Shown here: positions 5,129 to 64,000 of the stretch, in pieces
Position numbering within the stretch: position 1 is the stretch's first letter
How the letters are laid out: every line of letters starts with the position of its first letter
Origin: Sipunculus nudus
Taxonomy: Eukaryota > Annelida > Sipuncula > Golfingiida > Sipunculidae
Length of the DNA stretch: 64,000 bases
Direction: 5' to 3'
Assembly: GCA_026874595.1 (NCBI GenBank)
Contig: CM049306.1
Span: forward strand, 758,019 to 822,018
Made by a program: the position numbers and the translations under genes
The notes under the pieces: model-generated
What the model was told of the DNA's origin: nothing
What the model saw: the letters and a program-made list of their open reading frames with translations, nothing else
Databases searched by the model: none

Positions 5129-5216
5129 TCATTTTGAGTTGGTTGTTTGCAATCCACTTCCGAACCAGCTCAGTTGTATATTCCATATATGAGATATTTG
5201 CACAGATTTCTGAAGG

Positions 5217-5981: not shown

Positions 5982-6098
5982 AGGTTTGTCTCACGTCAGG
6001 ATCATAGAAGACTCAGATGTTGGTATGGATGCATTAATATCTTTTATTTTCTGTATAAAAAACTCTTCTACAAGCTCAGTTTTTGGTTTTTCTGGCAA

Positions 6099-19100: not shown

Positions 19101-19349
19101 TCTAACTGTAAGGTGACTGTTTATGGCCTGTCTGTGGTGTATCTCTGTTACTTAGTGTCAGACCCTGGTATCTGAGGTGCCTGTTTATGGCCTGTCTGTG
19201 GTGTACCTCTGTTATTGAGTGTGAGACCCTGTCATCTAAGGTGCATGTTTATGGCTTGTCTGTGGTGTAACTCTGTTACTAAGTGTCAGACCCTGGTATC
19301 TGAGGTGCCTGTTTATGGCTTGTCTGTGGTGTACCTCTGTTACTGAGTG

Positions 19350-20630
19350 TCAGACCCTGGTATCTGAGGTGCCTGTTTATGGCCTATCTGTGGTGTACCT
19401 ATGTTACTGAGTGTGAGACCCTGGTATCTGAGGTGCCTGTTTATGGCCTGTCTGTGGTGTACCTCTGTTATTGAGTGTGAGACCCTGTCATCTAAGGTGC
19501 ATGTTTATGGCTTGTCTGTGGTGTAACTCTGTTACTAAGTGTCAGACCCTGGTATCTGTGGTGCCTGTTTATGGCCTGTCTGTGGTGTACCTCTGTTACT
19601 GAGTGTCAGACCCTGGTATCTGAGGTGCCTGTTTATGGCCTATCTGTGGTGTACCTATGTTACTGAGTGTGAGACCCTGGTATCTGAGGTGCCTGTTTAT
19701 GGCCTGTCTGTGGTGTACCTCTGTTATTGAGTGTGAGACCCTGTCATCTAAGGTGCATGTTTATGGCTTGTCTGTGGTGTAACTCTGTTACTAAGTGTCA
19801 GACCCTGGTATCTGAGGTGCCTGTTTATGGCTTGTCTGTGGTGTACCTCTGTTACTGAGTGTCAGACCCTGGTATCTGAGGTGGCTGTTTATGGACTGTC
19901 TGTAGTGTAACTCTGTTACTTAGTGTCAGACCCTGGTATCTGAGGTGCCTGTTTATGGCTTGTCTGTGGTGTACCTCTGTTACTGAGTGTCAGACCCTGG
20001 TATCTCAGGTGCCTGTTTATGGCCTATCTGTGGTGTACCTATGTTACTGAGTGTGAGACCCTGGTATCTGAGGTGCCTGTTTATGGCCTGTCTGTGGTGT
20101 ACCTCTGTTATTGAGTGTGAGACCCTGTCATCTAAGGTGCATGTTTATGGCTTGTCTGTGGTGTAACTCTGTTACTAAGTGTCAGACCCTGGTATCTGTG
20201 GTGCCTGTTTATGGCCTGTCTGTGGTGTACCACTGTTACTGAGTGTCAGACCCTGGTATCTGAGGTGCCTGTTTATGGCCTATCTGTGGTGTACCTATGT
20301 TACTGAGTGTGAGACCCTGGTATCTGAGGTGCCTGTTTATGGCCTGTCTGTGGTGTACCTCTGTTATTGAGTGTGAGACCCTGTCATCTAAGGTGCATGT
20401 TTATGGCTTGTCTGTGGTGTAACTCTGTTACTAAGTGTCAGACCCTGGTATCTGAGGTGCCTGTTTATGGCTTGTCTGTGGTGTACCTCTGTTACTGAGT
20501 GTCAGACCCTGGTATCTGAGGTGGCTGTTTATGGACTGTCTGTAGTGTAACTCTGTTACTTAGTGTCAGACCCTGGTATCTGAGGTGGCTGTTTATGGAC
20601 TGTCTGTAGTGTAACTCTGTTACTTAGTGT
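19350..20630. repeat. 640-bp higher-order unit (10 monomers), two copies
   Basis: The run of monomers that includes GGTATCTGTGGTGCCTG recurs at exactly 640 bp (19539 and 20179), and its neighbours (GTACCTATGTTACTGAG, GGTGGCTGTTTATGGACTG) repeat with it. The same monomer string reappears near 37286, 41744 and 58775. Confidence 0.75.
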
Positions 20631-21391
20631 CAGACCCTGGTATCCAAGGTGCATGTTTATGGCCTGTCTGTGGTGTAACTCTGTTACTAAGTGTCAGACC
20701 CTGGCATCTGAGGTGCCTGTTTATGGCCTGTCTGTGGTGTATCTCTGTTACTTAGTGTTAGACCCTGGTATCTGAGGTGCCTGTCTATGGCCTGTCAGTG
20801 GTGTACCTCCGTATTGAGTGTGAGACCCTGTCATCTAAGGTGCATGTTTATGGCCTGTCTGTGGTGTAACTCTGTTACTAAGTGTCAGACCCTGATATCT
20901 GAGGTGCCTGTTTATGGCCTGTCTGTGGTGTACCTCTGTTATTGAGTGTGAGACCCTGTCATCTAAGGTGCATGTTTATGGCCTGTCTGTGGTGTAACTC
21001 TATTATTAAGTGTCAGACCCTGGAATCTGAGGTGCCTGTTTATGGCCTATCTGTGGTGTACCTCTGTTACTTTATGTCAGTACCTGGTATCTAAGGTGGC
21101 TGTTTATGACCTGTCAGTGGTGTACCTCCGTATTGAGTGTGAGACCCTGTCATCTAAGGTGCATGTTTATTGCCTGTCTGTGGTGTAACTATGTTACTAA
21201 ATGTCAGACCCTGGTATCTAAGGTGCATGTTTATGGCCTGTCTGTGGTGTAACTCTGTTACTAAGTGTCAGACCCTGGCATCTGAGGTGCCTGTTTATGG
21301 CCTGTCTGTGGTGTATCTCTGTTACTTAGTGTCAGACCCTGGTATCTGAGGTGCCTGTCTATGGCCTGTCAGTGGTGTACCTCCGTATTGA

Positions 21392-22030
21392 GTGTGAGAC
21401 CCTGTCATCTAAGGTGCATGTTTATGGCCTGTCTGTGGTGTAATTCTGATACTAAGTGTCAGACCCTAGCATCTGAGGTGCCTGTTTATGGCCTGTCTGT
21501 GGTGTTTCTCTGTTACTTAGTGTCAGACCCTGGTATCTGAGGTGCCTGTCTATGGCCTGTCAGTGGTGTACCTCCATATTGAGTGTGAGACCCTGTCATC
21601 TAAGGTGCATGTTTATGGCCTGTCTGTGGTGTAATTCTGTTACTAAGGGTCAGACCCTGGTATCTGAGGTGCCTGTTTATGGCCTGTCTGTGGTGTATCT
21701 CTGTTACTTAGTGTCAGACCCTGGCATCTGAGGTGCCTGTCTATGGCCTGTCAGTGGTGTACCTCCGTATTGAGTGTGAGACCCTGTCATCTAAGGTGCA
21801 TGTTTATGGCCTGTCTGTGGTGTAATTCTGTTACTAAGGGTCAGACCCTGGTATCTGAGGTGCCTGTTTATGGCCTGTCTGTGGTGTATCTCTGTTACTT
21901 AGTGTCAGACCCTGGCATTTGAGGTGCCTGTCTATGGCCTGTCAGTGGTGTACCTCCGTATTGAGTGTGAGACCCTGTCATCTAAGGTGCATGTTTATGG
22001 CCTGTCTGTGGTGTAATTCTGTTACTCAGG
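21392..22030. repeat. 191-bp trimer tract (representative)
   Basis: GTGTGAGACCCTGTCATCTA starts at 21392, 21583, 21774 and 21965, exactly 191 bp apart. Each trimer is a 64-bp unit with AAGGTGCATG and AATTCTG, a 64-bp unit with TTATGGCC and ATCTCTGTTACTTA, and a 63-bp unit with TCTATGGCCTGTCAGTGG and ACCTCCGTATTGA. This trimer dominates the T blocks and much of the S blocks. Confidence 0.85.
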
Positions 22031-25000
22031 GTCAGACCCTGGTATCTGAGGTGCCTGTTTATGGCCTATCTGTGGTGTACCTATGTTACTGAGTGTGAGA
22101 CCCTGGTATCTGAGGTGCCTGTTTATGGCCTGTCTGTGGTGTACCTCTGTTATTGAGTGTGAGACCCTGTCATCTAAGGTGCATGTTTATGGCTTGTCTG
22201 TGGTGTAACTCTGTTACTAAGTGTCAGACCCTGGTATCTGAGGTGCCTGTTTATGGCTTGTCTGTGGTGTACCTCTGTTACTGAGTGTCAGACCCTGGTA
22301 TCTGAGGTGCCTGTTTATGGCCTATCTGTGGTGTACCTCTGTTATTGAGTGTGAGACCCTGTCATCTAAAGTGCATGTTTATGGACTGTCTGTGGTGTAA
22401 CTCTGTTACTAAGTGTCAGACCCTGGTATCTGAGGTGCCTGTTTATGGCCTGTCTGTAGTGTAACTCTGTTACTTAGTGTCAGACCCTGGTATCTGAGGT
22501 GGCTGTTTATGGACTGTCTGTAGTGTAACTCTGTTACTTAGTGTCAGACCCTGGTATCTGAGGTGGCTGTTTATGGACTGTCTGTAGTGTAACTCTGTTA
22601 CTTAGTGTCAGACCCTGGTATCCAAGGTGCATGTTTATGGCCTGTCTGTGGTGTAACTCTGTTACTAAGTGTCAGACCCTGGCATCTGAGGTGCCTGTTT
22701 ATGGCCTGTCTGTGGTGTATCTCTGTTACTTAGTGTCAGACCCTGGTATCTGAGGTGCATGTTTATGGCCTGTCTGTGGTGTACCTCTGTTACTTAGTGT
22801 CAGACCCTAGTATCCAAGGTGCATGTTTATGGCCTGTCTGTGGGGTAACTCTGTTACTAAGTGTCAGACCCTGGCATCTGAGGTGCCTGTTTATGGCCTG
22901 TCTGTGGTGTATCTCTGTTACTTAGTGTTAGACCCTGGTATCTGAGGTGCCTGTCTATGGCCTGTCAGTGGTGTACCTCCGTATTGAGTGTGAGACCCTG
23001 TCATCTAAGGTGCATGTTTATGGCCTGTCTGTGGTGTAACTCTGTTACTAAGTGTCAGACCCTGATATCTGAGGTGCCTGTTTATGGCCTGTCTGTGGTG
23101 TACCTCTGTTATTGAGTGTGAGACCCTGTCATCTAAGGTGCATGTTTATGGCCTGTCTGTGGTGTAACTCTATTATTAAGTGACAGCCTGGAATCTGAGG
23201 TGCCTGTTTATGGCCTATCTGTGGTGTACCTCTGTTACTTAGTGTCAGTACCTGGTATCTAAGGTGGCTGTTTATGACCTGTCAGTGGTGTACCTCCGTA
23301 TTGAGTGTGAGACCCTGTCATCTAAGGTGCATGTTTATTGCCTGTCTGTGGTGTAACTATGTTACTAAATGTCAGACCCTGGTATCTAAGGTGCATGTTT
23401 ATGGCCTGTCTGTGGTGTAACTCTGTTACTAAGTGTCAGACCCTGGCATCTGAGGTGCCTGTTTATGGCCTGTCTGTGGTGTATCTCTGTTACTTAGTGT
23501 CAGACCCTGGTATCTGAGGTGCCTGTCTATGGCCTGTCAGTGGTGTACCTCCGTATTGAGTGTGAGACCCTGTCATCTAAGGTGCATGTTTATGGCCTGT
23601 CTGTGGTGTAATTCTGATACTAAGTGTCAGACCCTAGCATCTGAGGTGCCTGTTTATGGCCTGTCTGTGGTGTTTCTCTGTTACTTAGTGTCAGACCCTG
23701 GTATCTGAGGTGCCTGTCTATGGCCTGTCAGTGGTGTACCTCCATATTGAGTGTGAGACCCTGTCATCTAAGGTGCATGTTTATGGCCTGTCTGTGGTGT
23801 AATTCTGTTACTAAGGGTCAGACCCTGGTATCTGAGGTGCCTGTTTATGGCCTGTCTGTGGTGTATCTCTGTTACTTAGTGTCAGACCCTGGCATCTGAG
23901 GTGCCTGTCTATGGCCTGTCAGTGGTGTACCTCCGTATTGAGTGTGAGACCCTGTCATCTAAGGTGCATGTTTATGGCCTGTCTGTGGTGTAATTCTGTT
24001 ACTAAGGGTCAGACCCTGGTATCTGAGGTGCCTGTTTATGGCCTGTCTGTGGTGTATCTCTGTTACTTAGTGTCAGACCCTGGCATCTGAGGTGCCTGTC
24101 TATGGCCTGTCAGTGGTGTACCTCCGTATTGAGTGTGAGACCCTGTCATCTAAGGTGCATGTTTATGGCCTGTCTGTGGTGTAATTCTGTTACTCAGGGT
24201 CAGACCCTGGTATCTGAGGTGCCTGTTTATTGGCTGTGTGTGGTGTATCCCTGTTACTTAGTGTCAGACCCTGGCATCTGAGGTGCCTGTCTATGGCCTG
24301 TCAGTGGTGTACCTCCGTATTGAGTGTGAGACCCTGTCATCTAAGGTGCATGTTTATGGCCTGTCTGTGGAGTAACTCTGTAACTAAGTGTCAGACCTTA
24401 GTATCTAAGGTGCCTGTCTATGGCCTGTCAGTGGTGTACCTCAATATTGAGTGTGAGACCCTGTCATCTAAGGTGCATGTTTATGGCCTGTCTGTGGTGT
24501 ATTTCTGTTACTTAGTGTCAGACCCTGGCATCTGAGGTGCATGTTTATGGCCTGTCTGTGGTGTACCTCTGTTATTGAGTGTGAGACCCTGTCATCTAAG
24601 GTGCATGTTTATGGCTTGTCTGTGGTGTACCTCTGTTACTGAGTGTGAGACCCTGGTATCTGAGGTGACTGTTTATGGCCTGTCTGTGGTGTAACTCTGG
24701 TGTAACTCTGTTACTTAGTGTCAGACCCTGGTATCTATGGTGCCTGTTTATGGCCTGTCTGTGGTGTATCTCTGTTACTTAGTGTCAGACCCTGGTATCT
24801 GAGGTGCCTGTCTATGGCCTGTCAGTGGTGTACCTCCGTATTGAGTGTGAGACCCTGTCATCTAAGGTGCATGTTTATGCCCTGTCTGTGGTGTAATTCT
24901 GTTACTAAGGGTCAGACCCTGGTATCTGAGGTGCCTGTTTATGGGCTGTCTGTGGTGTATCTCTGTTTCTTAGTGTCAGACCCTGGCATCTGAGGTGCCT

Positions 25001-28000
25001 GTCTATGGCCTGTCAGTGGTGTACCTCCGTATTGAGTGTGAGACCCTGTCGTCTAAGGTGCATGTTTATGGCCTGTCTGTGGTGTATCTCTGTTACTTAG
25101 TGTGAGACCCTGGCATCTGAGGTGCCTGTCTATGGCCTGTCAGTGGTGTACCTCCGTATTGAGTGTGAGACCCTGTCATCTAAGGTGCATGTTTATGGCC
25201 TGTCTGTGGTGTACCTCTGTTACTTAGTGTCAGACCCTGGTATCTGAGGTGCCTGTTTATGGCCTGTCTGTGGTGTACCTCTGTTATTGAGTGTGAGACC
25301 CTGTCATCTAAGGTGCATGTTTATGGCCTGTGTGTGGTGTAATTCTGTTACTAAGGGTCAGACCCTGGTATCTGAGGTGCCTGTTTATGGCCTGTCTGTG
25401 GTGTATCTCTGTTACTTAGTGTCAGACCCTGGCATCTGAGGTGCCTGTCTATGGCCTGTCAGTGGTGTACCTCCGTATTGAGTGTGAGACCCTGTCATCT
25501 AAGGTGCATGTTTATGGCCTGTCTGTGGTGTAATTCTGTTACTAAGGGTCAGACCCTGGTATCTGAGGTGCCTGTTTATGGCCTGTCTGTGGTGTATCTC
25601 TGTTACTTAGTGTCAGACCCTGGCATCTGAGGTGCCTGTTTATGGCCTGTCTGTGGTGTTTCTCTGTTACTTAGTGTCAGACCCTGGTATCTGAGGTGCC
25701 TGTCTATGGCCTGTCAGTGGTGTACCTCCATATTGAGTGTGAGACCCTGTCATCTAAGGTGCATGTTGATGGCCTGTCTGTGGTGTAATTCTCTTACTAA
25801 GGGTCAGACCCTGGTATCTGAGGTGCCTGTTTATGGCCTGTCTGTGGTGTATCTCTGTTACTTAGTGTCAGACCCTGGCATCTGAGGTGCCTGTCTATGG
25901 CCTGTCAGTGGTGTACCTCCGTATTGAGTGTGAGACCCTGTCATCTAAGGTGCATGTTTATGGCCTGTCTGTGGTTTAATTCTGTTACTAAGGGTCAGAC
26001 CCTGGTATCTGAGGTGCCTGTTTATGGCCTGTCTGTGGTGTATCTCTGTTACTTAGTGTCAGACCCTGGCATCTGAGGTGCCTGTCTATGGCCTGTCAGT
26101 GGTGTACCTCCGTATTGAGTGTGAGACCCTGTCATCTAAGGTGCATGTTTATGGCCTGTCTGTGGAGTAACTCTGTTACTAAGTGTCAGACCTTGGTATC
26201 TAAGGTGCCTGTCTATGGCCTGTCAGTGGTGTACCTCAATAGTGAGTGTGAGACCCTGTCATCTAAGGCGCATTTTTATGGCCTTTCTGTGGTGTATCTC
26301 TGTTACTTAGTGTCAGACCCTGGCATCTGAGGTGCCTGTCTATGGCCTGTCAGTGGTGTACCTCCGTATTGAGTGTGAGACCCTGTCATCTAAGGTGCAT
26401 GTTTATGGCCTGTCTGTGGTGTACCTCTGTTACTTAGTGTCAGACCCTGGTATCTGAGGTGCCTGTTTATGGCCTGCCTGTGGTGTACCTCTGTTATTGA
26501 GTGTGAGACCCTGTCATCTAAGGTGCATGTTTATGGCCTGTCTGTGGTGTACCTCTGTTAATGAGTGTGAGACCCTGGTATCTGAGGTGACTGTTTATGG
26601 CCTGTCTGTGGTGTAACTCTGGTGTAACTCTGTTACTTAGTGTCAGACCCTGGTATCTATGGTGCCTGTTTATGCCCAGTCTGTGGTGTAATTCTGTTAC
26701 TAAGGGTCAGACCCTGGTATCTGAGGTGCCTGTTTATGGGCTGTCTGTGGTGTATCTCTGTTTCTTAGTGTCAGACCCTGGCATCTGAGGTGCCTGTCTA
26801 TGGCCTGTCTGTGGTGTATCTCTGTTACTTAGTGTCAGACCCTGGCATCTGAGGTGCCTGTCTATGGCCTGTCAGTGGTGTACTTCCGTATTGAGTGTGA
26901 GACCCTGTCATCTAAGGTGCATGTTTATGGCCTGTCTGTGGTGTAATTCTGTTATTAAGGGTCAGACCCTGGTATCTGAGGTGCCTGTTTATGGCCTGTC
27001 TGTGGCGTATCTCTGGTGTAACTCTGTTACTTAGTGTCAGACCCTGGTATCTATGGTGCCTGTTTATGGCCTGTCTGTGGTGTATCTCTGTTACTTAGTG
27101 TCAGACCCTGGTATCTGAGGTGCCTGTCTATGGCCTGTCAGTGGTGTACCTCCGTATTGAGTGTGAGACCCTGTCATCTAAGGTGCATGTTTATGGCCTG
27201 TCTGTGGTTTTATTCTGTTACTAAGGGTCAGACCCTGGTATCTGAGGTGCCTGTTTATGGCCTGTCTGTGGTGTATCTCTGTTACTTAGTGTCAGACCCT
27301 GGCATCTGAGGTGCCTGTCTATGGCCTGTCAGTGGTGTACCTCCGTACTGAGTGTGAGACCCTGTCATCTAAGGTGCATGTTTATGGCCTGTCTGTGGAG
27401 TAACTCTGTTACTAAGTGTCAGACCTTGGTATCTAAGGTGCCTGTCTATGGCCTGTCAGTGGTGTACCTCAATATTGAGTGTGAGACCCTGTCATCTAAG
27501 GTGCATGTTTATGGCCTGTCTGTGGTGTATCTCTGTTACTTAGTGTCAGACCCTGGCATCTGAGGTGCCTGTCTATGGCCTGTCAGTGGTGTACCTCCTT
27601 ATTGAGTGTGAGACCCTGTCATCTAAGGTGCATGTTTATGGCCTGTCTGTGGTGTACCTCTGTTACTTAGTGTCAGACCCTGGTATCTGAGGTGCCTGTT
27701 TATGGCCTGCCTGTGGTGTACCTCTGTTATTGAGTGTGAGACCCTGTCATCTAAGGTGCATGTTTATGGCTTGTCTGTGGTGTACCTCTGTTACTGAGTG
27801 TGAGACCCTGGTATCTGAGGTGACTGTTTATGGCCTGTCTGTGGTGTAACTCTGGTGTAACTCTGTTACTTAGTGTCAGACCCTGGTATCTATGGTGCCT
27901 GTTTATGGCCTGTCTGTGGTGTATCTCTGTTACTTAGTGTCAGACCCTGGTATCTGAGGTGCCTGTCTATGGCCTGTCAGTGGTGTACCTCCGTATTGAG

Positions 28001-29216
28001 TGTGAGACCCTGTCATCTAAGGTGCATGTTTATGCCCTGTCTGTGGTGTAATTCTGTTACTAAGGGTCAGACCCTGGTATCTGAGGTGCCTGTTTATGGG
28101 CTGTCTGTGGTGTATCTCTGTTTCTTAGTGTCAGACCCTGGCATCTGAGGTGCCTGTCTATGGCCTGTCAGTGGTGTACCTCCGTATTGAGTGTGAGACC
28201 CTGTCGTCTAAGGTGCATGTTTATGGCCTGTCTGTGGTGTATCTCTGTTACTTAGTGTGAGACCCTGGCATCTGAGGTGCCTGTCTATGGCCTGTCAGTG
28301 GTGTACCTCCGTATTGAGTGTGAGACCCTGTCATCTAAGGTGCATGTTTATGGCCTGTCTGTGGTGTACCTCTGTTACTTAGTGTCAGACCCTGGTATCT
28401 GAGGTGCCTGTTTATGGCCTGTCTGTGGTGTAACTCTGTTATTGAGTGTGAGACCCTGTCATCTAAGGTGCATGTTTATGGCCTGTCTGTGGTGTACCTC
28501 TGTTACTGAGTGTGAGACCCTGGTATCTGAGGTGACTGTTTATGGCCTGTCTGTGGTGTAACTCTGGTGTAACTCTGTTACTTAGTGTCAGACCCTGGTA
28601 TCTGAGGTGCCTGTTTATGGCCTGTCTGTGGTGTATCTCTGTTACTTAGTGTCAGACCCTGGTATCTGAGGTGCCTGTCTATGGCCTGTCAGTGGTGTAC
28701 CTCCGTATTGAGTGTGAGACCCTGTCATCTAAGGTGCATGTTTATGGCCTGTCTGTGGTGTAATTCTGTTACTAAGGGTCAGACCCTGGTATCTGAGGTG
28801 CCTGTTTATGGCCTGTCTGTGGTGTATCTCTGTTACTTAGTGTCAGACCCTGGCATCTGAGGTGCCTGTTTATGGCCTGTCTGTGGTGTATCTCTGTTAC
28901 TTAGTGTCAGACCCTGGCATCTGAGGTGCCTGTCTATGGCCTGTCAGTGGTGTACCTCCGTATTGAGTGTGAGACCCTGTCATCTAAGGTGCATGTTTAT
29001 GGCCTGTCTGTGGTGTAATTCTGTTACTAAGGGTCAGACCCTGGTATCTGAGGTGCCTGTTTATGGCCTGTCTGTGGCGTATCTCTGTTTCTTAGTGTCA
29101 GACCCTGGTATCTGAGGTGCCTGTCTATGGCCTGTCAGTGGTGTACCTCTGTTATTGAGTGTGAGACCCTGTCATCTAAGGTGCATGTTTATGGCCTGTC
29201 TGTGGTGTAATTCTGT

Positions 29217-32200
29217 TAATAAATGTCAGACCCTGGCATCTGAGGTGCCTGTTTATGGCCTGTCTGTGGTGTATCTCTGTTACTTAGTGTCAGACCCTGG
29301 TATCTGAGGTGCCTGTCTATGGCCTGTCAGTGGTGTACCTCCGTATTGAGTGTGAGACCCTGTCATCTAAGATGCATGTTTATGGCCTGTCTGTGGTGTA
29401 ATTTTGTTACTAAGGGTCAGACCCTGGTATTTGAGGTGGCTGTTTATGGCCTGTCTGTGGTATACCTCTGTTACTTAGTGTCAGACCCTGGTATCTGAGG
29501 TGCCTGTTTATGGCCTGTCTGTGGTGTATCTCTGTTACTTAGTGTCAGACCCTGGCATCTGAGGTGCCTGTCTATGGCCTGTCAGTGGTGTACCTCCGTA
29601 TTGAGTGTGAGACCCTGTCATCTAAGGTGCATGTTTATGGCCTGTCTGTGGAGTAACTCTGTTACTAAGTGTCAGACCTTGGTATCTAAGGTGCCTGTCT
29701 ATGGCCTGTCAGTGGTGTACCTCAATATTGAGTGTGAGACCCTGTCATCTAAGGTGTATGTTTCTGGCCTGTCTGTGGTGTATCTCTGTTACTTAGTGTC
29801 AGACCCTGGTATCTAAGGTGCCTGTCTATGGCCTGTCAGTGGTGTACCTCAATATTGAGTGTGAGACCCTGTCATCTAAGGTGCATGTTTCTGGCCTGTC
29901 TGTGGTGTATCTCTGTTACTTAGTGTCAGACCCTGGCATCTGAGGTGCCTGTCTATGGCCTGTCAGTGGTGTACCTCCATATTGAGTGTGAGACCCTGTC
30001 ATCTAAGGTGCATGTTTATGGCCTGTCTGTGGTGTACCTCTGTTACTTAGTGTCAGACCCTGGTATTTGAGGTGCCTGTTTATGGCCTGTCTGTGGTGTA
30101 CCTCTGTTATTGAGTGTGAGACCCTGTCATCTAAGGTGCATGTTTATGGCCTGTCTGTGGTGTAATTCTGTTAATAAATGTCAGACCCTGGCATCTGAGG
30201 TGCCTGTTTATGGCCTGTCTGTGGTGTATCTCTGTTACTTAGTGTCAGACCCTGGTATCTGAGGTGCCTGTCTATGGCCTGTCAGTGGTGTACCTCCGTA
30301 TTGAGTGTGAGACCCTGTCATCTAAGATGCATGTTTATGGCCTGTCTGTGGTGTAATTTTGTTACTAAGGGTCAGACCCTGGTATTTGAGGTGGCTGTTT
30401 ATGGCCTGTCTGTGGTATACCTCTGTTACTTAGTGTCAGACCCTGGTATCTGAGGTGCCTGTTTATGGCCTGTCTGTGGTGTATCTCTGTTACTTAGTGT
30501 CAGACCCTGGCATCTGAGGTGCCTGTCTATGGCCTGTCAGTGGTGTACCTCCGTATTGAGTGTGAGACCCTGTCATCTAAGGTGCATGTTTATGGCCTGT
30601 CTGTGGAGTAACTCTGTTACTAAGTGTCAGACCTTGGTATCTAAGGTGCCTGTCTATGGCCTGTCAGTGGTGTACCTCAATATTGAGTGTGAGACCCTGT
30701 CATCTAAGGTGTATGTTTCTGGCCTGTCTGTGGTGTATCTCTGTTACTTAGTGTCAGACCCTGGTATCTAAGGTGCCTGTCTATGGCCTGTCAGTGGTGT
30801 ACCTCAATATTGAGTGTGAGACCCTGTCATCTAAGGTGCATGTTTCTGGCCTGTCTGTGGTGTATCTCTGTTACTTAGTGTCAGACCCTGGCATCTGAGG
30901 TGCCTGTCTATGGCCTGTCAGTGGTGTACCTCCATATTGAGTGTGAGACCCTGTCATCTAAGGTGCATGTTTATGGCCTGTCTGTGGTGTACCTCTGTTA
31001 CTTAGTGTCAGACCCTGGTATCTGAGGTGCCTGTTTATGGCCTGTCTGTGGTGTACCTCTGTTATTGAGTGTGAGACCCTGTCATCTAAGGTGCATGTTT
31101 ATGGCCTGTCTGTGGTGTACCTCTGTTACTGAGTGTGAGACCCTGGTATCTGAGGTGACTGTTTATGGCCTGTGTGTGGTGTAACTCTGGTGTAACTCTG
31201 TTACTTAGTGTCAGACCCTGGTATCTGAGGTGCCTGTTTATGGCCTGTCTGTGGTGTATCTCTGTTACTTAGTGTCAGACCCTGTCATCTGAGGTGCCTG
31301 TCTATGGCCTGTCAGTGGTGTACCTCCGTATTGAGTGTGAGACCCTGTCATCTAAGGTGCATGTTTATGCCCTGTCTGTGGTGTAATTCTGTTACTAAGG
31401 GTCAGACCCTGGTATCTGAGGTGCCTGTTTATGGGCTGTCTGTGGTGTACCTCTGTTACTTAGTGTCAGACCCTGGCATCTGAGGTGCCTGTCTATGGTC
31501 TGTCAGTGGTGTACCTCCGTATTGAGTGTGAGACCCTGTCATCTAAGGTGCATGTTTATGGCCTGTCTGTGGTGTAATTCTGTTACTAAGGGTCAGACCC
31601 TGGTATCTGAGGTGCCTGTTTATGGCCTGTCTGTGGTGTATCTCTGTTACTTAGTGTCAGACCCTGGCATCTGAGGTGCCTGTTTATGGCCTGTCTGTGG
31701 TGTATCTCTGTTACTTAGTGTCAGACCCTGGCATCTGAGGTGCCTGTCTATGGCCTGTCAGTGGTGTACCTCCGTATTGAGTGTGAGACCCTGTCATCTA
31801 AGGTGCATGTTTATGGCCTGTCTGTGGTGTAATTCTGTTACTAAGGGTCAGACCCTGGTATCTGAGGTGCCTGTTTATGGCCTGTCTGTGGCGTATCTCT
31901 GTTTCTTAGTGTCAGACCCTGGTATCTGAGGTGCCTGTCTATGGCCTGTCAGTGGTGTACCTCTGTATTGAGTGTGAGACCCTGTCATCTTAGGTGCATG
32001 TTTATGGCCTGTCTGTGGTGTAATTCTGTTAATAAATGTCAGACCCTGGCATCTGAGGTGCCTGTTTATGGCCTGTCTGTGGTGTATCTCTGTTACTTAG
32101 TGTCAGACCCTGGTATCTGAGGTGCCTGTCTATGGCCTGTCAGTGGTGTACCTCCGCATTGAGTGTGAGACCCTGTCATCTAAGATGCATGTTTATGGCC

Positions 32201-36339: not shown

Positions 36340-37060
36340 CATCTAAGGTGCATGTTCATGGCATGTCTGTGGTGTAACTCTGTTACTAAGTGTGAGACCC
36401 TGTCATCTAAGGTGCATGTTCATGGCATGTCTGTGGTGTAACTCTGTTACTTAGTGTCAGACCCTGGTATCTAAGTTGCCTGTTTATGGCCTGTCTGTGG
36501 TGTAACTCTGTTACTGAGTGTGAGACCCTGGTATCTAAGTTGCCTGTTTATGGCCTGTCTGTGGTGTACCTCTGTTATTGAGTGTGAGACCCTGTCATCT
36601 AAGGTGCATGTTCATGGCATGTCTGTGGTGTAACTCTGTTACTAAGTGTGAGACCCTGTCATCTAAGGTGCATGTTCATGGCATGTCTGTGGTGTAACTC
36701 TGTTACTTAGTGTCAGACCCTGGTATCTAAGTTGCCTGTTTATGGCCTGTCTGTGGTGTAACTCTGTTACTGAGTGTCAGACCCTGGTATCTGAGGTGAC
36801 TGTTTATGGCCTGTCTGTGGTGTACCTCTGTTACTGAGTGTGAGACCCTGGTATCTAAGTTGCCTGTTTATGGCCTGTCTGTGGTGTACCTCTGTTATTG
36901 AGTGTGAGACCCTGTCATCTAAGGTGCATGTTCATGGCATGTCTGTGGTGTAACTCTGTTACTAAGTGTGAGACCCTGTCATCTAAGGTGCATGTTCATG
37001 GCATGTCTGTGGTGTAACTCTGTTACTTAGTGTCAGACCCTGGTATCTAAGTTGCCTGTT
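36340..37060. repeat. GTTCATGGCATGTCTG monomer cluster, right end of T1
   Basis: Pairs of monomers with GTTCATGGCATGTCTG recur at 256 bp (4 monomers) and 320 bp (5 monomers). The cluster exists only here and, 21,489 bp further on, at 57,830-58,550; a single adjoining piece (GGTATCTAAGTTGCCTG) is left at about 41,500. It is a useful anchor for the large duplications. Confidence 0.8.
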
Positions 37061-37089
37061 TATGGCCTGTCTGTGGTGTAACTCTGTTA

Positions 37090-52700: not shown

Positions 52701-55700
52701 TGTCTATGGACTGTCAGTGGTGTACCTCAATATTGAGTGTGAGACCCTGTCATCTAAGGTGCATGTTTATGGCCTGTCTGTGGTGTATCTCTGTTACTTA
52801 GTGTCAGACCCTGGCATCTGAGGTGCCTGTCTATGGCCTGTCAGTGGTGTACCTCCTTATTGAGTGTGAGACCCTGTCATCTAAGGTGCATGTTTATGGC
52901 CTGTCTGTGGTGTACCTCTGTTACTTAGTGTCAGACCCTGGTATCTGAGGTGCCTGTTTATGGCCTGCCTGTGGTGTACCTCTGTTATTGAGTGTGAGAC
53001 CCTGTCATCTAAGGTGCATGTTTATGGCTTGTCTGTGGTGTACCTCTGTTACTGAGTGTGAGACCCTGGTATCTGAGGTGACTGTTTATGGCCTGTCTGT
53101 GGTGTAACTCTGGTGTAACTCTGTTACTTAGTGTCAGACCCTGGTATCTATGGTGCCTGTTTATGGCCTGTCTGTGGTGTATCTCTGTTACTTAGTGTCA
53201 GACCCTGGTATCTGAGGTGCCTGTCTATGGCCTGTCAGTGGTGTACCTCCGTATTGAGTGTGAGACCCTGTCATCTAAGGTGCATGTTTATGCCCTGTCT
53301 GTGGTGTAATTCTGTTACTAAGGGTCAGACCCTGGTATCTGACGTGCCTGTTTATGGGCTGTCTGTGGTGTATCTCTGTTTCTTAGTGTCAGACCCTGGC
53401 ATCTGAGGTGCCTGTCTATGGCCTGTCAGTGGTGTACCTCCGTATTGAGTGTGAGACCCTGTCGTCTAAGGTGCATGTTTATGGCCTGTCTGTGGTGTAT
53501 CTCTGTTACTTAGTGTGAGACCCTGGCATCTGAGGTGCCTGTCTATGGCCTGTCAGTGGTGTACCTCCGTATTGAGTGTGAGACCCTGTCATCTAAGGTG
53601 CATGTTTATGGCCTGTCTGTGGTGTACCTCTGTTACTTAGTGTCAGACCCTGGTATCTGAGGTGCCTGTTTATGGCCTGTCTGTGGTGTAACTCTGTTAT
53701 TGAGTGTGAGACCCTGTCATCTAAGGTGCATGTTTATGGCCTGTCTGTGGTGTACCTCTGTTACTGAGTGTGAGACCCTGGTATCTGAGGTGACTGTTTA
53801 TGGCCTGTCTGTGGTGTAACTCTGGTGTAACTCTGTTACTTAGTGTCAGACCCTGGTATCTGAGGTGCCTGTTTATGGCCTGTCTGTGGTGTATCTCTGT
53901 TACTTAGTGTCAGACCCTGGTATCTGAGGTGCCTGTCTATGGCCTGTCAGTGGTGTACCTCCGTATTGAGTGTGAGACCCTGTCATCTAAGGTGCATGTT
54001 TATGGCCTGTCTGTGGTGTAATTCTGTTACTAAGGGTCAGACCCTGGTATCTGAGGTGCCTGTTTATGGCCTGTCTGTGGTGTATCTCTGTTACTTAGTG
54101 TCAGACCCTGGCATCTGAGGTGCCTGTTTATGGCCTGTCTGTGGTGTATCTCTGTTACTTAGTGTCAGACCCTGGCATCTGAGGTGCCTGTCTATGGCCT
54201 GTCAGTGGTGTACCTCCGTATTGAGTGTGAGACCCTGTCATCTAAGGTGCATGTTTATGGCCTGTCTGTGGTGTAATTCTGTTACTAAGGGTCAGACCCT
54301 GGTATCTGAGGTGCCTGTTTATGGCCTGTCTGTGGCGTATCTCTGTTTCTTAGTGTCAGACCCTGGTATCTGAGGTGCCTGTCTATGGCCTGTCAGTGGT
54401 GTACCTCTGTATTGAGTGTGAGACCCTGTCATCTTAGGTGCATGTTTATGGCCTGTCTGTGGTGTAATTCTGTTAATAAATGTCAGACCCTGGCATCTGA
54501 GGTGCCTGTTTATGGCCTGTCTGTGGTGTATCTCTGTTACTTAGTGTCAGACCCTGGTATCTGAGGTGCCTGTCTATGGCCTGTCAGTGGTGTACCTCCG
54601 CATTGAGTGTGAGACCCTGTCATCTAAGATGCATGTTTATGGCCTGTCTGTGGTGTAATTTTGTTACTAAGGGTCAGACCCTGGTATTTGAGGTGGCTGT
54701 TTATGGCCTGTCTGTGGTATACCTCTGATACTTAGTGTCAGACCCTGGTATCTGAGGTGCCTGTTTATGGCCTGTCTGTGGTGTATCTCTGTTACTTAGT
54801 GTCAGACCCTGGCATCTGAGGTGCCTGTCTATGGCCTGTCAGTGGTGTACCTCCGTATTGAGTGTGAGACCCTGTCATCTAAGGTGCATGTTTATGGCCT
54901 GTCTGTGGAGTAACTCTGTTACTAAGTGTCAGACCTTGGTATCTAAGGTGCCTGTCTATGGCCTGTCAGTGGTGTACCTCAATATTGAGTGTCAGACCCT
55001 GTCATCTAAGGTGCATGTTTCTGGCCTGTCTGTGGTGTATCTCTGTTACTTAGTGTCAGACCCTGGTATCTAAGGTGCCTGTCTATGGCCTGTCAGTGGT
55101 GTACCTCAATATTGAGTGTGAGACCCTGTCATCTAAGGTGCATGTTTCTGGCCTGTCTGTGGTGTATCTCTGTTACTTAGTGTCAGACCCTGGCATCTGA
55201 GGTGCCTGTCTATGGCCTGTCAGTGGTGTACCTCCATATTGAGTGTGAGACCCTGTCATCTAAGGTGCATGTTTATGGCCTGTCTGTGGTGTACCTCTGT
55301 TACTTAGTGTCAGACCCTGGTATTTGAGGTGCCTGTTTATGGCCTGTCTGTGGTGTACCTCTGTTATTGAGTGTGAGACCCTGTCATCTAAGGTGCATGT
55401 TTATGGCCTGTCTGTGGTGTAATTCTGTTAATAAATGTCAGACCCTGGCATCTGAGGTGCCTGTTTATGGCCTGTCTGTGGTGTATCTCTGTTACTTAGT
55501 GTCAGACCCTGGTATCTGAGGTGCCTGTCTATGGCCTGTCAGTGGTGTACCTCCGTATTGAGTGTGAGACCCTGTCATCTAAGATGCATGTTTATGGCCT
55601 GTCTGTGGTGTAATTTTGTTACTAAGGGTCAGACCCTGGTATTTGAGGTGGCTGTTTATGGCCTGTCTGTGGTATACCTCTGTTACTTAGTGTCAGACCC

Positions 55701-58570
55701 TGGTATCTGAGGTGCCTGTTTATGGCCTGTCTGTGGTGTATCTCTGTTACTTAGTGTCAGACCCTGGCATCTGAGGTGCCTGTCTATGGCCTGTCAGTGG
55801 TGTACCTCCGTATTGAGTGTGAGACCCTGTCATCTAAGGTGCATGTTTATGGCCTGTCTGTGGAGTAACTCTGTTACTAAGTGTCAGACCTTGGTATCTA
55901 AGGTGCCTGTCTATGGCCTGTCAGTGGTGTACCTCAATATTGAGTGTGAGACCCTGTCATCTAAGGTGTATGTTTCTGGCCTGTCTGTGGTGTATCTCTG
56001 TTACTTAGTGTCAGACCCTGGTATCTAAGGTGCCTGTCTATGGCCTGTCAGTGGTGTACCTCAATATTGAGTGTGAGACCCTGTCATCTAAGGTGCATGT
56101 TTCTGGCCTGTCTGTGGTGTATCTCTGTTACTTAGTGTCAGACCCTGGCATCTGAGGTGCCTGTCTATGGCCTGTCAGTGGTGTACCTCCATATTGAGTG
56201 TGAGACCCTGTCATCTAAGGTGCATGTTTATGGCCTGTCTGTGGTGTACCTCTGTTACTTAGTGTCAGACCCTGGTATCTGAGGTGCCTGTTTATGGCCT
56301 GTCTGTGGTGTACCTCTGTTATTGAGTGTGAGACCCTGTCATCTAAGGTGCATGTTTATGGCCTGTCTGTGGTGTACCTCTGTTACTGAGTGTGAGACCC
56401 TGGTATCTGAGGTGACTGTTTATGGCCTGTGTGTGGTGTAACTCTGGTGTAACTCTGTTACTTAGTGTCAGACCCTGGTATCTGAGGTGCCTGTTTATGG
56501 CCTGTCTGTGGTGTATCTCTGTTACTTAGTGTCAGACCCTGTCATCTGAGGTGCCTGTCTATGGCCTGTCAGTGGTGTACCTCCGTATTGAGTGTGAGAC
56601 CCTGTCATCTAAGGTGCATGTTTATGCCCTGTCTGTGGTGTAATTCTGTTACTAAGGGTCAGACCCTGGTATCTGAGGTGCCTGTTTATGGGCTGTCTGT
56701 GGTGTACCTCTGTTACTTAGTGTCAGACCCTGGCATCTGAGGTGCCTGTCTATGGTCTGTCAGTGGTGTACCTCCGTATTGAGTGTGAGACCCTGTCATC
56801 TAAGGTGCATGTTTATGGCCTGTCTGTGGTGTATCTCTGTTACTTAGTGTCAGACCCTGGCATCTGAGGTGCCTGTCTATGGCCTGTCAGTGGTGTACCT
56901 CCGTATTGAGTGTGAGACCCTGTCATCTAAGGTGCATGTTTATGGCCTGTCTGTGGTGTACCTCTGTTATTGAGTGTGAGACCCTGTCATCTAAGGTGTA
57001 TGTTTATGGCCTGTCTGTGGTATACCTCTGTTACTGAGTGTGAGACCCTGTCATCTAAGGTGCATGTTTATGGCGTGTCTGTGGTGTACCTCTGTTACTG
57101 AGTGTGAGACCCTGGTATCTGAGGTGACTGTTTATGGCCTGTCTGTGGTGTAACTCTGGTGTAACTCTGTTACTTAGTGTCAGACCCTGGTATCTGAGGT
57201 GCCTGTTTATGGCCTGTCTGTGGTGTATCTCTGTTACTTAGTGTCAGACCCTGGTATCTGAGGTGCCTGTCTATGGCCTGTCAGTGGTGTACCTCCGTTT
57301 TGAGTGTGAGACCCTGTCATCTAAGGTGCATGTTTATGGCCTGTCTGTGGTGTAATTCTGTTACTAAGGGTCAGACCCTGGTATCTGAGGTGCCTGTTTA
57401 TGACCTGTCAGTGGTGTACCTCCGTATTGAGTGTGAGACCCTGTCATCTAAGGTGCATGTTTATTGCCTGTCTGTGGTGTAACTCTATTACTAAATGTCA
57501 GACCCTGGTATCTAAGGTGCATGTTTATGGCCTGTCTGTGGTGTAACACTGTTACTAAATGTCAGACCCTGGTATCTGAGGTGCCTGTTTATGGCCTGTC
57601 TGTGGTGTACCTCTGTTACTAAGTGTCAGACCCTGGTATCTGAGGTGCATGTTTATGGCCTGTCTGTGGTATACCTCTGTTACTGAGTGTGAGACCCTGT
57701 CATCTAAGGTGCATGTTTATGGCCTGTCTGTGGTATACCTCTGTTACTGAGTGTGAGACCCTGGTATCTAAGTTGCCTGTTTATGGCCTGTCTGTGGTGT
57801 ACCTCTGTTATTGAGTGTGAGACCCTGTCATCTAAGGTGCATGTTCATGGCATGTCTGTGGTGTAACTCTGTTACTAAGTGTGAGACCCTGTCATCTAAG
57901 GTGCATGTTCATGGCATGTCTGTGGTGTAACTCTGTTACTTAGTGTCAGACCCTGGTATCTAAGTTGCCTGTTTATGGCCTGTCTGTGGTGTAACTCTGT
58001 TACTGAGTGTGAGACCCTGGTATCTAAGTTGCCTGTTTATGGCCTGTCTGTGGTGTACCTCTGTTATTGAGTGTGAGACCCTGTCATCTAAGGTGCATGT
58101 TCATGGCATGTCTGTGGTGTAACTCTGTTACTAAGTGTGAGACCCTGTCATCTAAGGTGCATGTTCATGGCATGTCTGTGGTGTAACTCTGTTACTTAGT
58201 GTCAGACCCTGGTATCTAAGTTGCCTGTTTATGGCCTGTCTGTGGTGTAACTCTGTTACTGAGTGTCAGACCCTGGTATCTGAGGTGACTGTTTATGGCC
58301 TGTCTGTGGTGTACCTCTGTTACTGAGTGTGAGACCCTGGTATCTAAGTTGCCTGTTTATGGCCTGTCTGTGGTGTACCTCTGTTATTGAGTGTGAGACC
58401 CTGTCATCTAAGGTGCATGTTCATGGCATGTCTGTGGTGTAACTCTGTTACTAAGTGTGAGACCCTGTCATCTAAGGTGCATGTTCATGGCATGTCTGTG
58501 GTGTAACTCTGTTACTTAGTGTCAGACCCTGGTATCTAAGTTGCCTGTTTATGGCCTGTCTGTGGTGTAA
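46731..58570. repeat. Satellite block T2
   Basis: Second T block, about 11.8 kb. Parts match T1 at offsets of 22,444, 20,436, 25,258 and 21,489 bp. Compared with T1 the interior is permuted: segments equal to 27,321-29,600 come first (47,757-50,010), then those equal to 26,088-28,100 (51,346-53,400). It has three 955-bp units (markers near 49651, 54475 and 55430) instead of five. Fixed differences include CTGGGGTGCC for CTGAGGTGCC at 49,294 and GACGTGCC at 53,341. Confidence 0.75.
57830..58550. repeat. GTTCATGGCATGTCTG monomer cluster, right end of T2
   Basis: Copy of the cluster at 36,340-37,060, offset 21,489 bp, same spacing of the pairs. Confidence 0.8.
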
Positions 58571-61500
58571 CTCTGTTACTGAGTGTCAGACCCTGGTATC
58601 TGAGGTGCCTGTTTATGGCCTATCTGTGGTGTACCTATGTTACTGAGTGTGAGACCCTGGTATCTGAGGTGCCTGTTTATGGCCTGTCTGTGGTGTACCT
58701 CTGTTATTGAGTGTGAGACCCTGTCATCTAAGGTGCAGGTTTATGGCCTGTCTGTGGTGTAACTCTGTTACTAAGTGTCAGACCCTGGTATCTGTGGTGC
58801 CTGTTTATGGCCTGTCTGTGGTGTACCTCTGTTACTGAGTGTCAGACCCTGGTATCTGAGGTGCCTGTTTATGGCCTATCTGTGGTGTACCTATGTTACT
58901 GAGTGTGAGACCCTGGTATCTGAGGTGCCTGTTTATGGCCTGTCTGTGGTGTACCTCTGTTATTGAGTGTGAGACCCTGTCATCTAAGGTGCATGTTTAT
59001 GGCTTGTCTGTGGTGTAACTCTGTTACTAAGTGTCAGACCCTGGTATCTGAGGTGCCTGTTTATGGCTTGTCTGTGGTGTACCTCTGTTACTGAGTGTCA
59101 GACCCTGGTATCTGAGGTGGCTGTTTATGGACTGTCTGTAGTGTAACTCTGTTACTAAGTGTCAGACCCTGGTATCTGAGGTGGCTGTTTATGGACTGTC
59201 TGTAGTGTAACTCTGTTACTTAGTGTCAGACCCTGGTATCCAAGGTGCATGTTTATGGCCTGTCTGTGGTGTAACTCTGTTACTAAGTGTCAGACCCTGG
59301 CATCTGAGGTGCCTGTTTATGGCCTGTCTGTGGTGTATCTCTGTTACTTAGTGTCAGACCCTGGTATCTGAGGTGCATGTTTATGGCCTGTCTGTGGTGT
59401 ACCTCTGTTACTTAGTGTCAGACCCTGGTATCCAAGGTGCATGTTTATGGCCTGTCTGTGGTGTAACTCTGTTACTAAGTGTCAGACCCTGGCATCTGAG
59501 GTGCCTGTTTATGGCCTGTCTGTGGTGAATCTCTGTTACTTAGTGTTAGACCCTGGTATCTGAGGTGCCTGTCTATGGCCTGTCAGTGGTGTACCTCCGT
59601 ATTGAGTGTGAGACCCTGTCATCTAAGGTGCATGTTTATGGCCTGTCTGTGGTGTAACTCTGTTACTAAGTGTCAGACCCTGATATCTGAGGTGCCTGTT
59701 TATGGCCTGTCTGTGGTGTACCTCTGTTATTGAGTGTGAGACCCTGTCATCTAAGGTGCATGTTTATGGCCTGTCTGTGGTGTAACTCTATTATTAAGTG
59801 TCAGACCCTGGAATCTGAGGTGCCTGTTTATGGCCTATCTGTGGTGTACCTCTGTTACTTAGTGTCAGTACCTGGTATCTAAGGTGGCTGTTTATGACCT
59901 GTCAGTGGTGTACCTCCGTATTGAGTGTGAGACCCTGTCATCTAAGGTGCATGTTTATTGCCTGTCTGTGGTGTAACTATGTTACTAAATGTCAGACCCT
60001 GGTATCTAAGGTGCATGTTTATGGCCTGTCTGTGGTGTAACTCTGTTACTAAGTGTCAGACCCTGGCATCTGAGGTGCCTGTTTATGGCCTGTCTGTGGT
60101 GTATCTCCGTTACTTAGTGTCAGACCCTGGTATCTGAGGTTCCTGTCTATGGCCTGTCAGTGGTGTACCTCCGTATTGAGTGTGAGACCCTGTCATCTAA
60201 GGTGCATGTTTATGGCCTGTCTGTGGTGTAATTCTGATACTAAGTGTCAGACCCTAGCATCTGAGGTGCCTGTTTATGGCCTGTCTGTGGTGTTTCTCTG
60301 TTACTTAGTGTCAGACCCTGGTATCTGAGGTGCCTGTCTATGGCCTGTTAGTGGTGTACCTCCATATTGAGTGTGAGACCCTGTCATCTAAGGTGCATGT
60401 TTATGGCCTGTCTGTGGTGTAATTCTGTTACTAAGGGTCAGACCCTGGTATCTGAGGTGCCTGTTTATGGCCTGTCTGTGGTGTATCTCTGTTACTTAGT
60501 GTCAGACCCTGGCATCTGAGGTGCCTGTCTATGGCCTGTCAGTGGTGTACCTCCGTATTGAGTGTGAGACCCTGTCATCTAAGGTGCATGTTTATGGCCT
60601 GTCTGTGGTGTAATTCTGTTACTAAGGGTCAGACCCTGGTATCTGAGGTGCCTGTTTATGGCCTGTCTGTGGTGTATCTCTGTTACTTAGTGTCAGACCC
60701 TGGCATCTGAGGTGCCTGTCTATGGCCTGTCAGTGGTGTACCTCCGTATTGAGTGTGAGACCCTGTCATCTAAGGTGCATCTTTATGGCCTATCTGTGGT
60801 GTAATTCTGTTACTCAGGGTCAGACCCTGGTATCTGAGGTGCCTGTAATTGGCCTATCTGTGGTGTACCTATGTTACTGAGTGTGAGACCCTGGTATCTG
60901 AGGTGCCTGTTTATGGCCTGTCTGTGGTGTACCTCTGTTATTGAGTGTGAGACCCTGTCATCTAAGGTGCATGTTTATGGCTTGTCTGTGGTGTAACTCT
61001 GTTACTAAGTGTCAGACCCTGGTATCTGAGGTGCCTGTTTATGGCTTGTCTGTGGTGTACCTCTGTTACTGAGTGTCAGACCCTGGTATCTGAGGTGCCT
61101 GTTTATGGCCTATCTGTGGTGTACCTCTGTTATTGAGTGTGAGACCCTGTCATCTAAAGTGCATGTTTATGGACTGTCTGTGGTGTAACTCTGTTACTAA
61201 GTGTCAGACCCTGGTATCTGAGGTGCCTGTTTATGGCCTGTCTGTAGTGTAACTCTGTTACTTAGTGTCAGACCCTGGTATCTGAGGTGGCTGTTTATGG
61301 ACTGTCTGTAGTGTAACTCTGTTACTTAGTGTCAGACCCTGGTATCTGAGGTGGCTGTTTATGGACTGTCTGTAGTGTAACTCTGTTACTTAGTGTCAGA
61401 CCCTGGTATCCAAGGTGCATGTTTATGGCCTGTCTGTGGTGTAACTCTGTTACTAAGTGTCAGACCCTGGCATCTGAGGTGCCTGTTTATGGCCTGTCTG

Positions 61501-63700
61501 TGGTGTATCTCTGTTACTTAGTGTCAGACCCTGGTATCTGAGGTGCATGTTTATGGCCTGTCTGTGGTGTACCTCTGTTACTTAGTGTCAGACCCTGGTA
61601 TCCAAGGTGCATGTTTATGGCCTGTCTGTCGGGTAACTCTGTTACTAAGTGTCAGACCCTGGCATCTGAGGTGCCTGTTTATGGCCTGTCTGTGGTGTAT
61701 CTCTGTTACTTAGTGTTAGACCCTGGTATCTGAGGTGCCTGTCTGTGGCCTGTCAGTGGTGTACCTCCGTATTGAGTGTGAGACCCTGTCATCTAAGGTG
61801 CATGTTTATGGCCTGTCTGTGGTGTAACTCTGTTACTAAGTGTCAGACCCTGATATCTGAGGTGCCTGTTTATGGCCTGTCTGTGGTGTACCTCTGTTAT
61901 TGAGTGTGAGACCCTGTCATCTAAGGTGCATGTTTATGGCCTGTCTGTGGTGTAACTCTATTATTAAGTGACAGCCTGGAATCTGAGGTGCCTGTTTATG
62001 GCCTATCTGTGGTGTACCTCTGTTACTTAGTGTCAGTACCTGGTATCTAAGGTGGCTGTTTATGACCTGTCAGTGGTGTACCTCCGTATTGAGTGTGAGA
62101 CCCTGTCATCTAAGGTGCATGTTTATTGCCTGTCTGTGGTGTAACTATGTTACTAAATGTCAGACCCTGGTATCTAAGGTGCATGTTTATGGCCTGTCTG
62201 TGGTGTAACTCTGTTACTAAGTGTCAGACCCTGGCATCTGAGGTGCCTGTTTATGGCCTGTCTGTGGTGTATCTCTGTTACTTAGTGTCAGACCCTGGTA
62301 TCTGAGGTGCCTGTCTATGGCCTGTCAGTGGTGTACCTCCGTATTGAGTGTGAGACCCTGTCATCTAAGGTGCATGTTTATGGCCTGTCTGTGGTGTAAT
62401 TGTGGTGTCAGACCCTAGCATCTGAGGTGCCTGTTTATGGCCTGTCTGTGGTGTAACTCTGTTACTAAGTGTCAGACCCTGATATCTGAGGTGCCTGTCT
62501 ATGGCCTGTCTGTGGTGTACCTCCATATTGAGTGTGAGACCCTGTCATCTAAGGTGCATGTTTATGGCCTGTCTGTGGTGTAACTCTATTATTAAGTGAC
62601 AGCCTGGAATCTGAGGTGCCTGTTTATGGCCTATCTGTGGTGTACCTCTGTTACTTAGTGTCAGTACCTGGTATCTAAGGTGGCTGTTTATGACCTGTCA
62701 GTGGTGTACCTCCGTATTGAGTGTGAGACCCTGTCATCTAAGGTGCATGTTTATTGCCTGTCTGTGGTGTAACTATGTTACTAAATGTCAGACCCTGGTA
62801 TCTAAGGTGCATGTTTATGGCCTGTCTGTGGTGTAACTCTGTTACTAAGTGTCAGACCCTGGCATCTGAGGTGCCTGTTTATGGCCTGTCTGTGGTGTAT
62901 CTCTGTTACTTAGTGTCAGACCCTGGTATCTGAGGTGCCTGTCTATGGCCTGTCAGTGGTGTACCTCCGTATTGAGTGTGAGACCCTGTCATCTAAGGTG
63001 CATGTTTATGGCCTGTCTGTGGTGTAATTCTGATACTAAGTGTCAGACCCTAGCATCTGAGGTGCCTGTTTATGGCCTGTCTTTGGTGTTTCTCTGTTAC
63101 TTAGTGTCAGACCCTGGTATCTGAGGTGCCTGTCTATGGCCTGTCAGTGGTGTACCTCCATATTGAGTGTGAGACCCTGTCATCTAAGGTGCATGTTTAT
63201 GGCCTGTCTGTGGTGTAATTCTGTTACTAAGGGTCAGACCCTGGTATCTGAGGTGCCTGTTTATGGCCTGTCTGTGGTGTATCTCTGTTACTTAGTGTCA
63301 GACCCTGGCATCTGAGGTGCCTGTCTATGGCCTGTCAGTGGTGTACCTCCGTATTGAGTGTGAGACCCTGTCATCTAAGGTGCATGTTTATGGCCTGTCT
63401 GTGGTGTAATTCTGTTACTAAGGGTCAGACCCTGGTATCTGAGGTGCCTGTTTATGGCCTGTCTGTGGTGTATCTCTGTTACTTAGTGTCAGACCCTGGC
63501 ATCTGAGGTGCCTGTCTATGGCCTGTCAGTGGTGTACCTCCGTATTGAGTGTGAGACCCTGTCATCTAAGGTGCATGTTTATGGCCTGTCTGTGGTGTAA
63601 TTCTGTTACTCAGGGTCAGACCCTGGTATCTGAGGTGCCTGCTTATGGGCTGTCTGTGGTGTATCCCTGTTACTTAGTGTCAGACCCTGGCATCTGAGGT
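58571..63700. repeat. Satellite block S3
   Basis: Third full S block, matching S2 at an offset of 17,031 bp on its left and about 16,968-16,971 bp on its right. The change comes from one monomer fewer near 61,440 than at 44,400-44,530. GTCAGTACCTGG lies near 59864, 62032 and 62659. Confidence 0.75.
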
Positions 63701-64000
63701 GCCTGTCTATGGCCTGTCAGTGGTGTACCTCCGTATTGAGTGTGAGACCCTGTCATCTAAGGTGCATGTTTATGGCCTGTCTGTGGAGTAACTCTGTAAC
63801 TAAGTGTCAGACCTTGGTATCTAAGGTGCCTGTCTATGGCCTGTCAGTGGTGTACCTCAATATTGAGTGTGAGACCCTGTCATCTAAGGTGCATGTTTAT
63901 GGCCTGTCTGTGGTGTATTTCTGTTACTTAGTGTCAGACCCTGGCATCTGAGGTGCCTGTCTATGGCCTGTCAGTGGTGTACCTCCGTATTGAGTGTGAG
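63701..64000. repeat. Start of a third T block (T3), cut by the window edge
   Basis: It repeats the opening of T2 (46,738 onward) at an offset of 16,971 bp, including GTGGAGTAACTCTGTAAC and GTGTATTTCTGTTACTTAG, so the S-T super-repeat goes on beyond the window. Confidence 0.75.

Follow-up and report, generated by a model that had tools for sequence, protein, structure and literature searches.

A single-locus 64-bp minisatellite with nested but irregular block order in Sipunculus nudus

In the genome of Sipunculus nudus, contig CM049306.1 (here C1, 110.9 Mb, from the 1.43-Gb, 153-contig assembly GCA_026874595.1) carries a tandem array of 794 head-to-tail monomers of the 64-bp class, 50.8 kb long and in one orientation throughout. 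The array is confined to one locus, its blocks are nested, its interior is rich in recent copies and its edges are diverged. We analysed a window of 64,000 nucleotides, C1:758,019-822,018, and followed the array beyond it; positions below are those of the window unless prefixed with C1. The explanation that we favour, with a probability of about 0.82, is a single-locus and probably intronic minisatellite of the variable number of tandem repeats (VNTR) type, layered by round after round of out-of-register exchange in which the blocks became larger and larger. It is a known kind of element, a single-locus VNTR, and unusual in its length and depth of nesting.

Monomers and genome-wide copy number

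Tandem Repeats Finder reports one array in the window, from 19,111 to 63,997, with a period of 64 or 191. Decomposition into monomers on the plus strand puts the first array base at 19,111 and fills the window up to its end at 64,000, much as the initial annotation had it, and extension adds 5.9 kb, so that the right end lies at C1:827,951 (window coordinate 69,933). By wrap-around alignment the part inside the window holds 701 whole monomers, 139 of them distinct, with lengths of 64 bp (513 monomers), 63 bp (161), 75 bp (16), 62 bp (7), 57 bp (3) and 60 bp (1). For the entire array the figures are 577 of 794 at 64 bp and 185 at 63 bp, within the unit size of roughly 10-100 bp of minisatellites and VNTRs. 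The mosaic of variants that marks this class is also present, 148 distinct monomers falling into 34 clusters (average linkage, cut at 4 edits). Macrosatellites of the DXZ4 or D4Z4 type have a kilobase basic unit, and the basic unit here is 64 bp.

A 26-mer of the monomer, with up to 2 mismatches allowed, has 502 forward and 0 reverse matches in the whole assembly, and the window together with the next 10 kb holds the same 502 and 0. With a 23-mer and up to 3 mismatches we found 792 forward and 3 reverse matches; 790 of the forward ones are inside the array, and the remaining 2, together with the 3 reverse ones, are at the level of the reversed control (1 + 2). These counts apply to the assembled letters, and relatives too diverged for both words could escape them. 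The word search is not blind to repeats, since it found thousands of copies of the neighbouring ones: 5,045 + 5,148 matches for a 25-mer of the left flank and 10,651 + 10,900 for a 31-mer of a nearby 180-bp tandem repeat. The array is confined to a single locus, as VNTRs are, and for this reason the label 'satellite', which the initial annotation had used, is misleading.

Block order and recent internal copies

In cluster letters, the array is a string with the block order S0-T1-S1-S2-T2-S3-T3, at the end of which comes a short, irregular tail. The starts of the T blocks were set by the string LAJAB and those of S1, S2 and S3 by PDCIPDCIHHCBFCB, each found in three places. All blocks are on the plus strand. 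S0 (19111-24216, 5,106 bp) is the most diverged S copy, differing by 0.36-0.75% from stretches of S1-S3. It is followed by T1 (24217-37113, 12,897 bp), by S1 (37114-41571, 4,458 bp), which has no T block after it, and then, in the monomer-letter string, by S2 (41572-46661, 5,090 bp), T2 (46662-58602, 11,941 bp) and S3 (58603-63632, 5,030 bp). T3 begins at 63633, crosses the window end at 64000 and, with a length of 5,844 bp, reaches window coordinate 69,476. From S0 to S3 the order is the one first described; T3, only 5.8 kb long, and the tail come after it. A super-period of about 17.0 kb had also been proposed, and offsets of this size do exist, 17,031 bp from S2 to S3 and 16,971 bp from T2 to T3. 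These are, however, a single interval measured twice, and the four S or S-T units are 18.0, 4.5, 17.0 and 10.9 kb long, so there is no fixed 17-kb super-period.

The lower levels of order are local. Trimers of 191 bp are present, as had been claimed, but only 5,155 bp is made up of a trimer, of whatever kind, in two to three consecutive copies. Lag 3 gives 19.2% same-cluster pairs (200 shuffles: mean 10.3%, maximum 13.7%), and lags 4 (16.8%), 6 (17.9%), 15 (16.8%), 19 (16.4%), 44 (16.9%), 59 (15.0%) and 75 (17.9%) are about as strong; lag 9, a multiple of 3, is inside the shuffle range at 12.4%, and lags 1 (3.9%), 2 (7.3%) and 5 (6.6%) are low. When identical pairs are counted, the best monomer lag reaches 23.3%, far more than chance would give, since in 100 shuffles no lag exceeds 6.2%. 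A 955-bp class string of 15 monomers occurs nine times, always in T blocks and five times in T1, with 6,685 bp in tandem: two units at 29179-31088 and three at 31992-34856 in T1, and two at 54436-56345 in T2, all on the plus strand. This unit had been taken for five trimers, but its string TBAUSBAJAVABAFD shows lag-3 agreement in 0 of 12 comparisons (counted by eye), and it is therefore not built in that way. The proposal of four nested levels of order over-reads what are irregular segmental copies.

Among the long internal copies that we list, which reach 101 monomers, the divergence is 0.08-0.75%. The longest, of 101 monomers, has 22 edits in 6,490 bp at an offset of 25,258, the second, of 98 monomers, 11 edits in 6,274 bp at 21,489, and the third, of 97 monomers, 10 edits in 6,187 bp at 16,967. 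Between S1 and S2, two runs of 2.2 kb show a divergence of 0.09%. The copies were taken from a comparison of monomer runs; megablast of the units under-reported them, presumably where extensions hit diverged monomers. Block-copy offsets are many and include 25.3, 22.4, 21.5, 20.4, 17.0, 4.8, 4.6, 4.5, 3.8, 2.8 and 0.96 kb. Duplicated runs of at least 20 monomers and at most 1% divergence cover 733 of the 794 monomers, and the four uncovered stretches include both edges. A letter-identical twin exists for 756 of the 794, and the longest letter-identical run at one lag is 35 monomers, as compared to 3-4 in five shuffles of the order. Near-identical copies tens of kb apart, noticed earlier, are thus real, at 21.5 and 25.3 kb, and the view that large pieces were amplified recently is well supported by these long copies of low divergence.

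Repeated unequal exchange predicts an excess of twinless monomers at the edges of an array. Such monomers make up 9 of the outermost 55 (3/25 at the left, 6/30 at the right) and 29 of the 739 elsewhere (Fisher p = 0.0006, with edge widths picked post hoc).

It is conceivable that the layered order was created during assembly, by collapsed, expanded or haplotype-duplicated copies, as sequences of 99.7-99.9% identity over 2-6 kb are difficult to assemble. However, N is absent from the window and from the next 10 kb, each listed pair of long copies differs by at least 2 edits, the offsets vary, and S0 has the divergence given above from stretches of S1-S3. We consider such an artefact unlikely.

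A classical satellite of the centromere or heterochromatin type, with regular higher-order repeats, would resemble the array in some respects. Two neighbouring monomers differ on average by 9.77 edits, whereas random pairs differ by 8.31; neighbours are also more divergent than the listed block copies, and long block copies are more than 99% identical, as in the higher-order repeats of alpha-satellite. Against this, satellites of that type have high copy numbers at many or large heterochromatic loci and repeat one fixed multi-monomer unit throughout, while here there is one 51-kb locus in 1.43 Gb, with copies elsewhere not above control level, and the units are unequal with varied offsets. The array furthermore adjoins dispersed repeats and a probable exon (see below), 0.78 Mb from one end of C1. 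A classical satellite is for us the least credible explanation.

In the growth process that we propose for the minisatellite, the 64-bp unit would first have multiplied in place. Later rounds, in which sister chromatids or alleles would have exchanged or copied sequence out of register, would have duplicated blocks in sizes of about 1 kb, 2-5 kb and, uninterrupted, 6.5 kb or more; single steps may have been as large as 17-25 kb. Early blocks would have been carried inside later and larger ones, which would give a nested but irregular order, a near-identical interior and older monomers toward the edges. No function would have to be assumed for this, and the length of the array is expected to differ strongly between individuals. 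As a clean, gap-free case with both edges readable, the array illustrates how a minisatellite can become layered when it copies larger and larger parts of itself. It is not a new kind of element, and the mode of growth is striking yet ordinary for such repeats. As there is a single locus, the sizes of the steps could be read directly from a comparison of its alleles, something that satellites with several loci make difficult.

Array edges and a probable exon

On the left, the array adjoins a dispersed-repeat copy (17501-19110, maybe reaching further left, as the query started at 17,501) part-way along the repeat, at ...CATCTAACTGT. Its edge 25-mer is the one counted above, with 10,193 matches genome-wide. 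All ten other copies inspected run past the junction point into non-array sequence, five of them with ATGCC. The repeat also has a copy at C1:726616-728217.

On the right, 9 bp past the array end at C1:827,951, there is a probable open exon of 120 nt on the minus strand (C1:827,961-828,080). It has an AG acceptor after a T-rich tract and a GT donor facing the array, and would encode the 40-aa peptide VIKQYKEEKFDFLLNVFNNPSYLEDLTGLTEMHCNADDAE. Its combined score of 14.37 is the highest on its strand in the flanks; 60 dinucleotide shuffles gave a mean of 10.2 and a maximum of 14.34. As the right end is so close to a probable exon, the array lies probably in an intron. The peptide has one match in the genome, itself, and no Pfam match and no significant match in PDB. 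A UFD2-type E4 ligase was tried as the host gene and rejected: the PDB hits had E = 1.5-1.6, the Ufd2P core domain has 16 genome matches on C2, C15 and C10 and none on C1, and no control genome matched. The mollusc haemocyanin domain PF14830 had no match; as no control matched either, this carries no information on the clade.

Several observations count against the explanation that we prefer. The exon score is barely above that of the best shuffle, and the opposite strand of the flanks carries an exon candidate that scores higher, 18.7. The exon stands alone, since splice-and-frame scans and translations of the flanks gave no host-gene Pfam domain and no convincing neighbouring exon. A fold prone to slippage was not found either; one trimer has z = 0.09 as DNA and -0.02 as RNA against shuffles, ordinary values, so that slippage driven by hairpins has no support from predicted structure. 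Finally, the evidence comes from one assembly, from which we infer recombination and expect length polymorphism. In the minus-strand translations of the flanks (stops as X, part of the flanking DNA) only the reverse-transcriptase-related domains RVT_1 and zf-RVT were found.

The same edge could be read as part of an intronic or boundary element with a function, such as a splicing switch that varies in length or a chromatin boundary like DXZ4. The single orientation throughout and a probable splice donor 9 bp away from the array edge would fit such an element, but tandem growth alone also yields one orientation. Rfam has no match in the window at gathering score, the one-trimer folds are ordinary, and on the strand of the exon there is no long open frame in the array, the longest being 73 aa. 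We regard a functional element as very unlikely. A bolder version, in which selection would have kept the orientation and the edge near the splice donor, and recent length jumps of several kb would determine how strongly the host gene is expressed or how it is spliced, seems to us slightly less likely still; if true, this one locus would act as a natural switch of variable length. A reading of the array as a protein repeat was ruled out by its short open stretches, at most 169 aa on the plus strand and the 73 aa on the minus strand.

At the ends of C1 (3 kb at its start and 2 kb at its end) neither TTAGGG nor CCCTAA was found, and a subtelomeric position is unsupported. The last 150 bases of C1 look like the start of what we take to be a histone H2B gene, and because of this C1 may end inside a cluster of histone genes and not at a telomere.

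Related arrays and minor observations

A full-text literature search, judged by titles and abstract openings, gave among the papers listed no account that we recognised as the present array, which cannot prove that it is unpublished. The repeat in WDR7 is intronic, and the large alleles of human-gene minisatellites of this type are shorter than the array described here.

The closest precedent appears to be the human 61-bp VNTR at Xp22.33, an 18-kb array in a complex arrangement, whose higher-order repeats, 1.6 and 2.5 kb long, are irregular (PMC2588610). The same paper reports unexpected higher-order structure in human VNTR arrays of more than 10 kb, counts such VNTRs among the single-locus ones and places several large arrays in introns. 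The monomers are of nearly equal length, and the single-locus class and the irregular higher-order repeats are shared; the present array differs by its 64-bp unit, its 51 kb and its nesting up to units of 17-18 kb. The 69-mer repeats of WDR7 form a large minisatellite of a human gene (PMC10502081) and are likewise a unit of similar length expanded in tandem, but multi-kb nested blocks are not among the features described in the excerpt of that paper.

Higher-order structure of a short monomer had been called much less described in invertebrates. This may hold for such a depth of nesting, but beetle satellites have dimer or trimer higher-order repeats, and in Tribolium castaneum 73-bp monomers are combined with monomers of 63 or 82-83 bp (PMC8122249, PMC10218199), and the human VNTR is a precedent outside this group. 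The beetle repeats resemble the present array in having short monomers in invertebrate higher-order units; they are dimers or trimers, whereas ours occupies one locus and has blocks many kb long. The formation of higher-order units has been treated in general terms for a bivalve (PMC5874043). In primate alpha-satellite the monomers inside a block diverge more than successive blocks do (PMC8122249), which is also what we see here. Its monomer, however, is 171 bp (PMC2588610), and its units are regular, centromeric and found on many chromosomes, none of which is shown for the present array.

Among the substitutions that separate recent block copies, transversions prevail, with 36 against 14 transitions in seven partly overlapping pairs (25056-64000, to C1:825622), although these are small numbers; five flanking repeat pairs, also partly overlapping, have 150 transitions and 198 transversions in sum. 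A table of monomer columns excludes 24 of the 794 monomers (those of 75, 57 and 60 bp). The observed/expected ratio of CpG is 0.05 in the array, compared to 0.45 and 0.36 in the flanks. At the one CpG site of the commonest monomer class we counted CCTCCG 119 times, CCTCCA 23, CCTCAA 21 and CCTCTG 4 times. These variants may reflect decay of methylated CpG. Two of the 50 block-copy substitutions are at CpG, among 168 CpG-context sites.

Further to the left, the 180-bp tandem repeat used as a control has 10.6 copies at 8910-10807, and the 21,551 matches of its 31-mer on both strands mark it as an abundant dispersed repeat, unlike the 64-bp array. A retroelement is represented by open stretches at 5217-5990 and 4412-5128 and by an RVT_1 reverse transcriptase domain (E = 3e-29) on the minus strand at 5118-5738, as computed from protein positions. 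Near the start of the window, at 238-560, there are seven copies of a 45-bp repeat with one open frame per strand.

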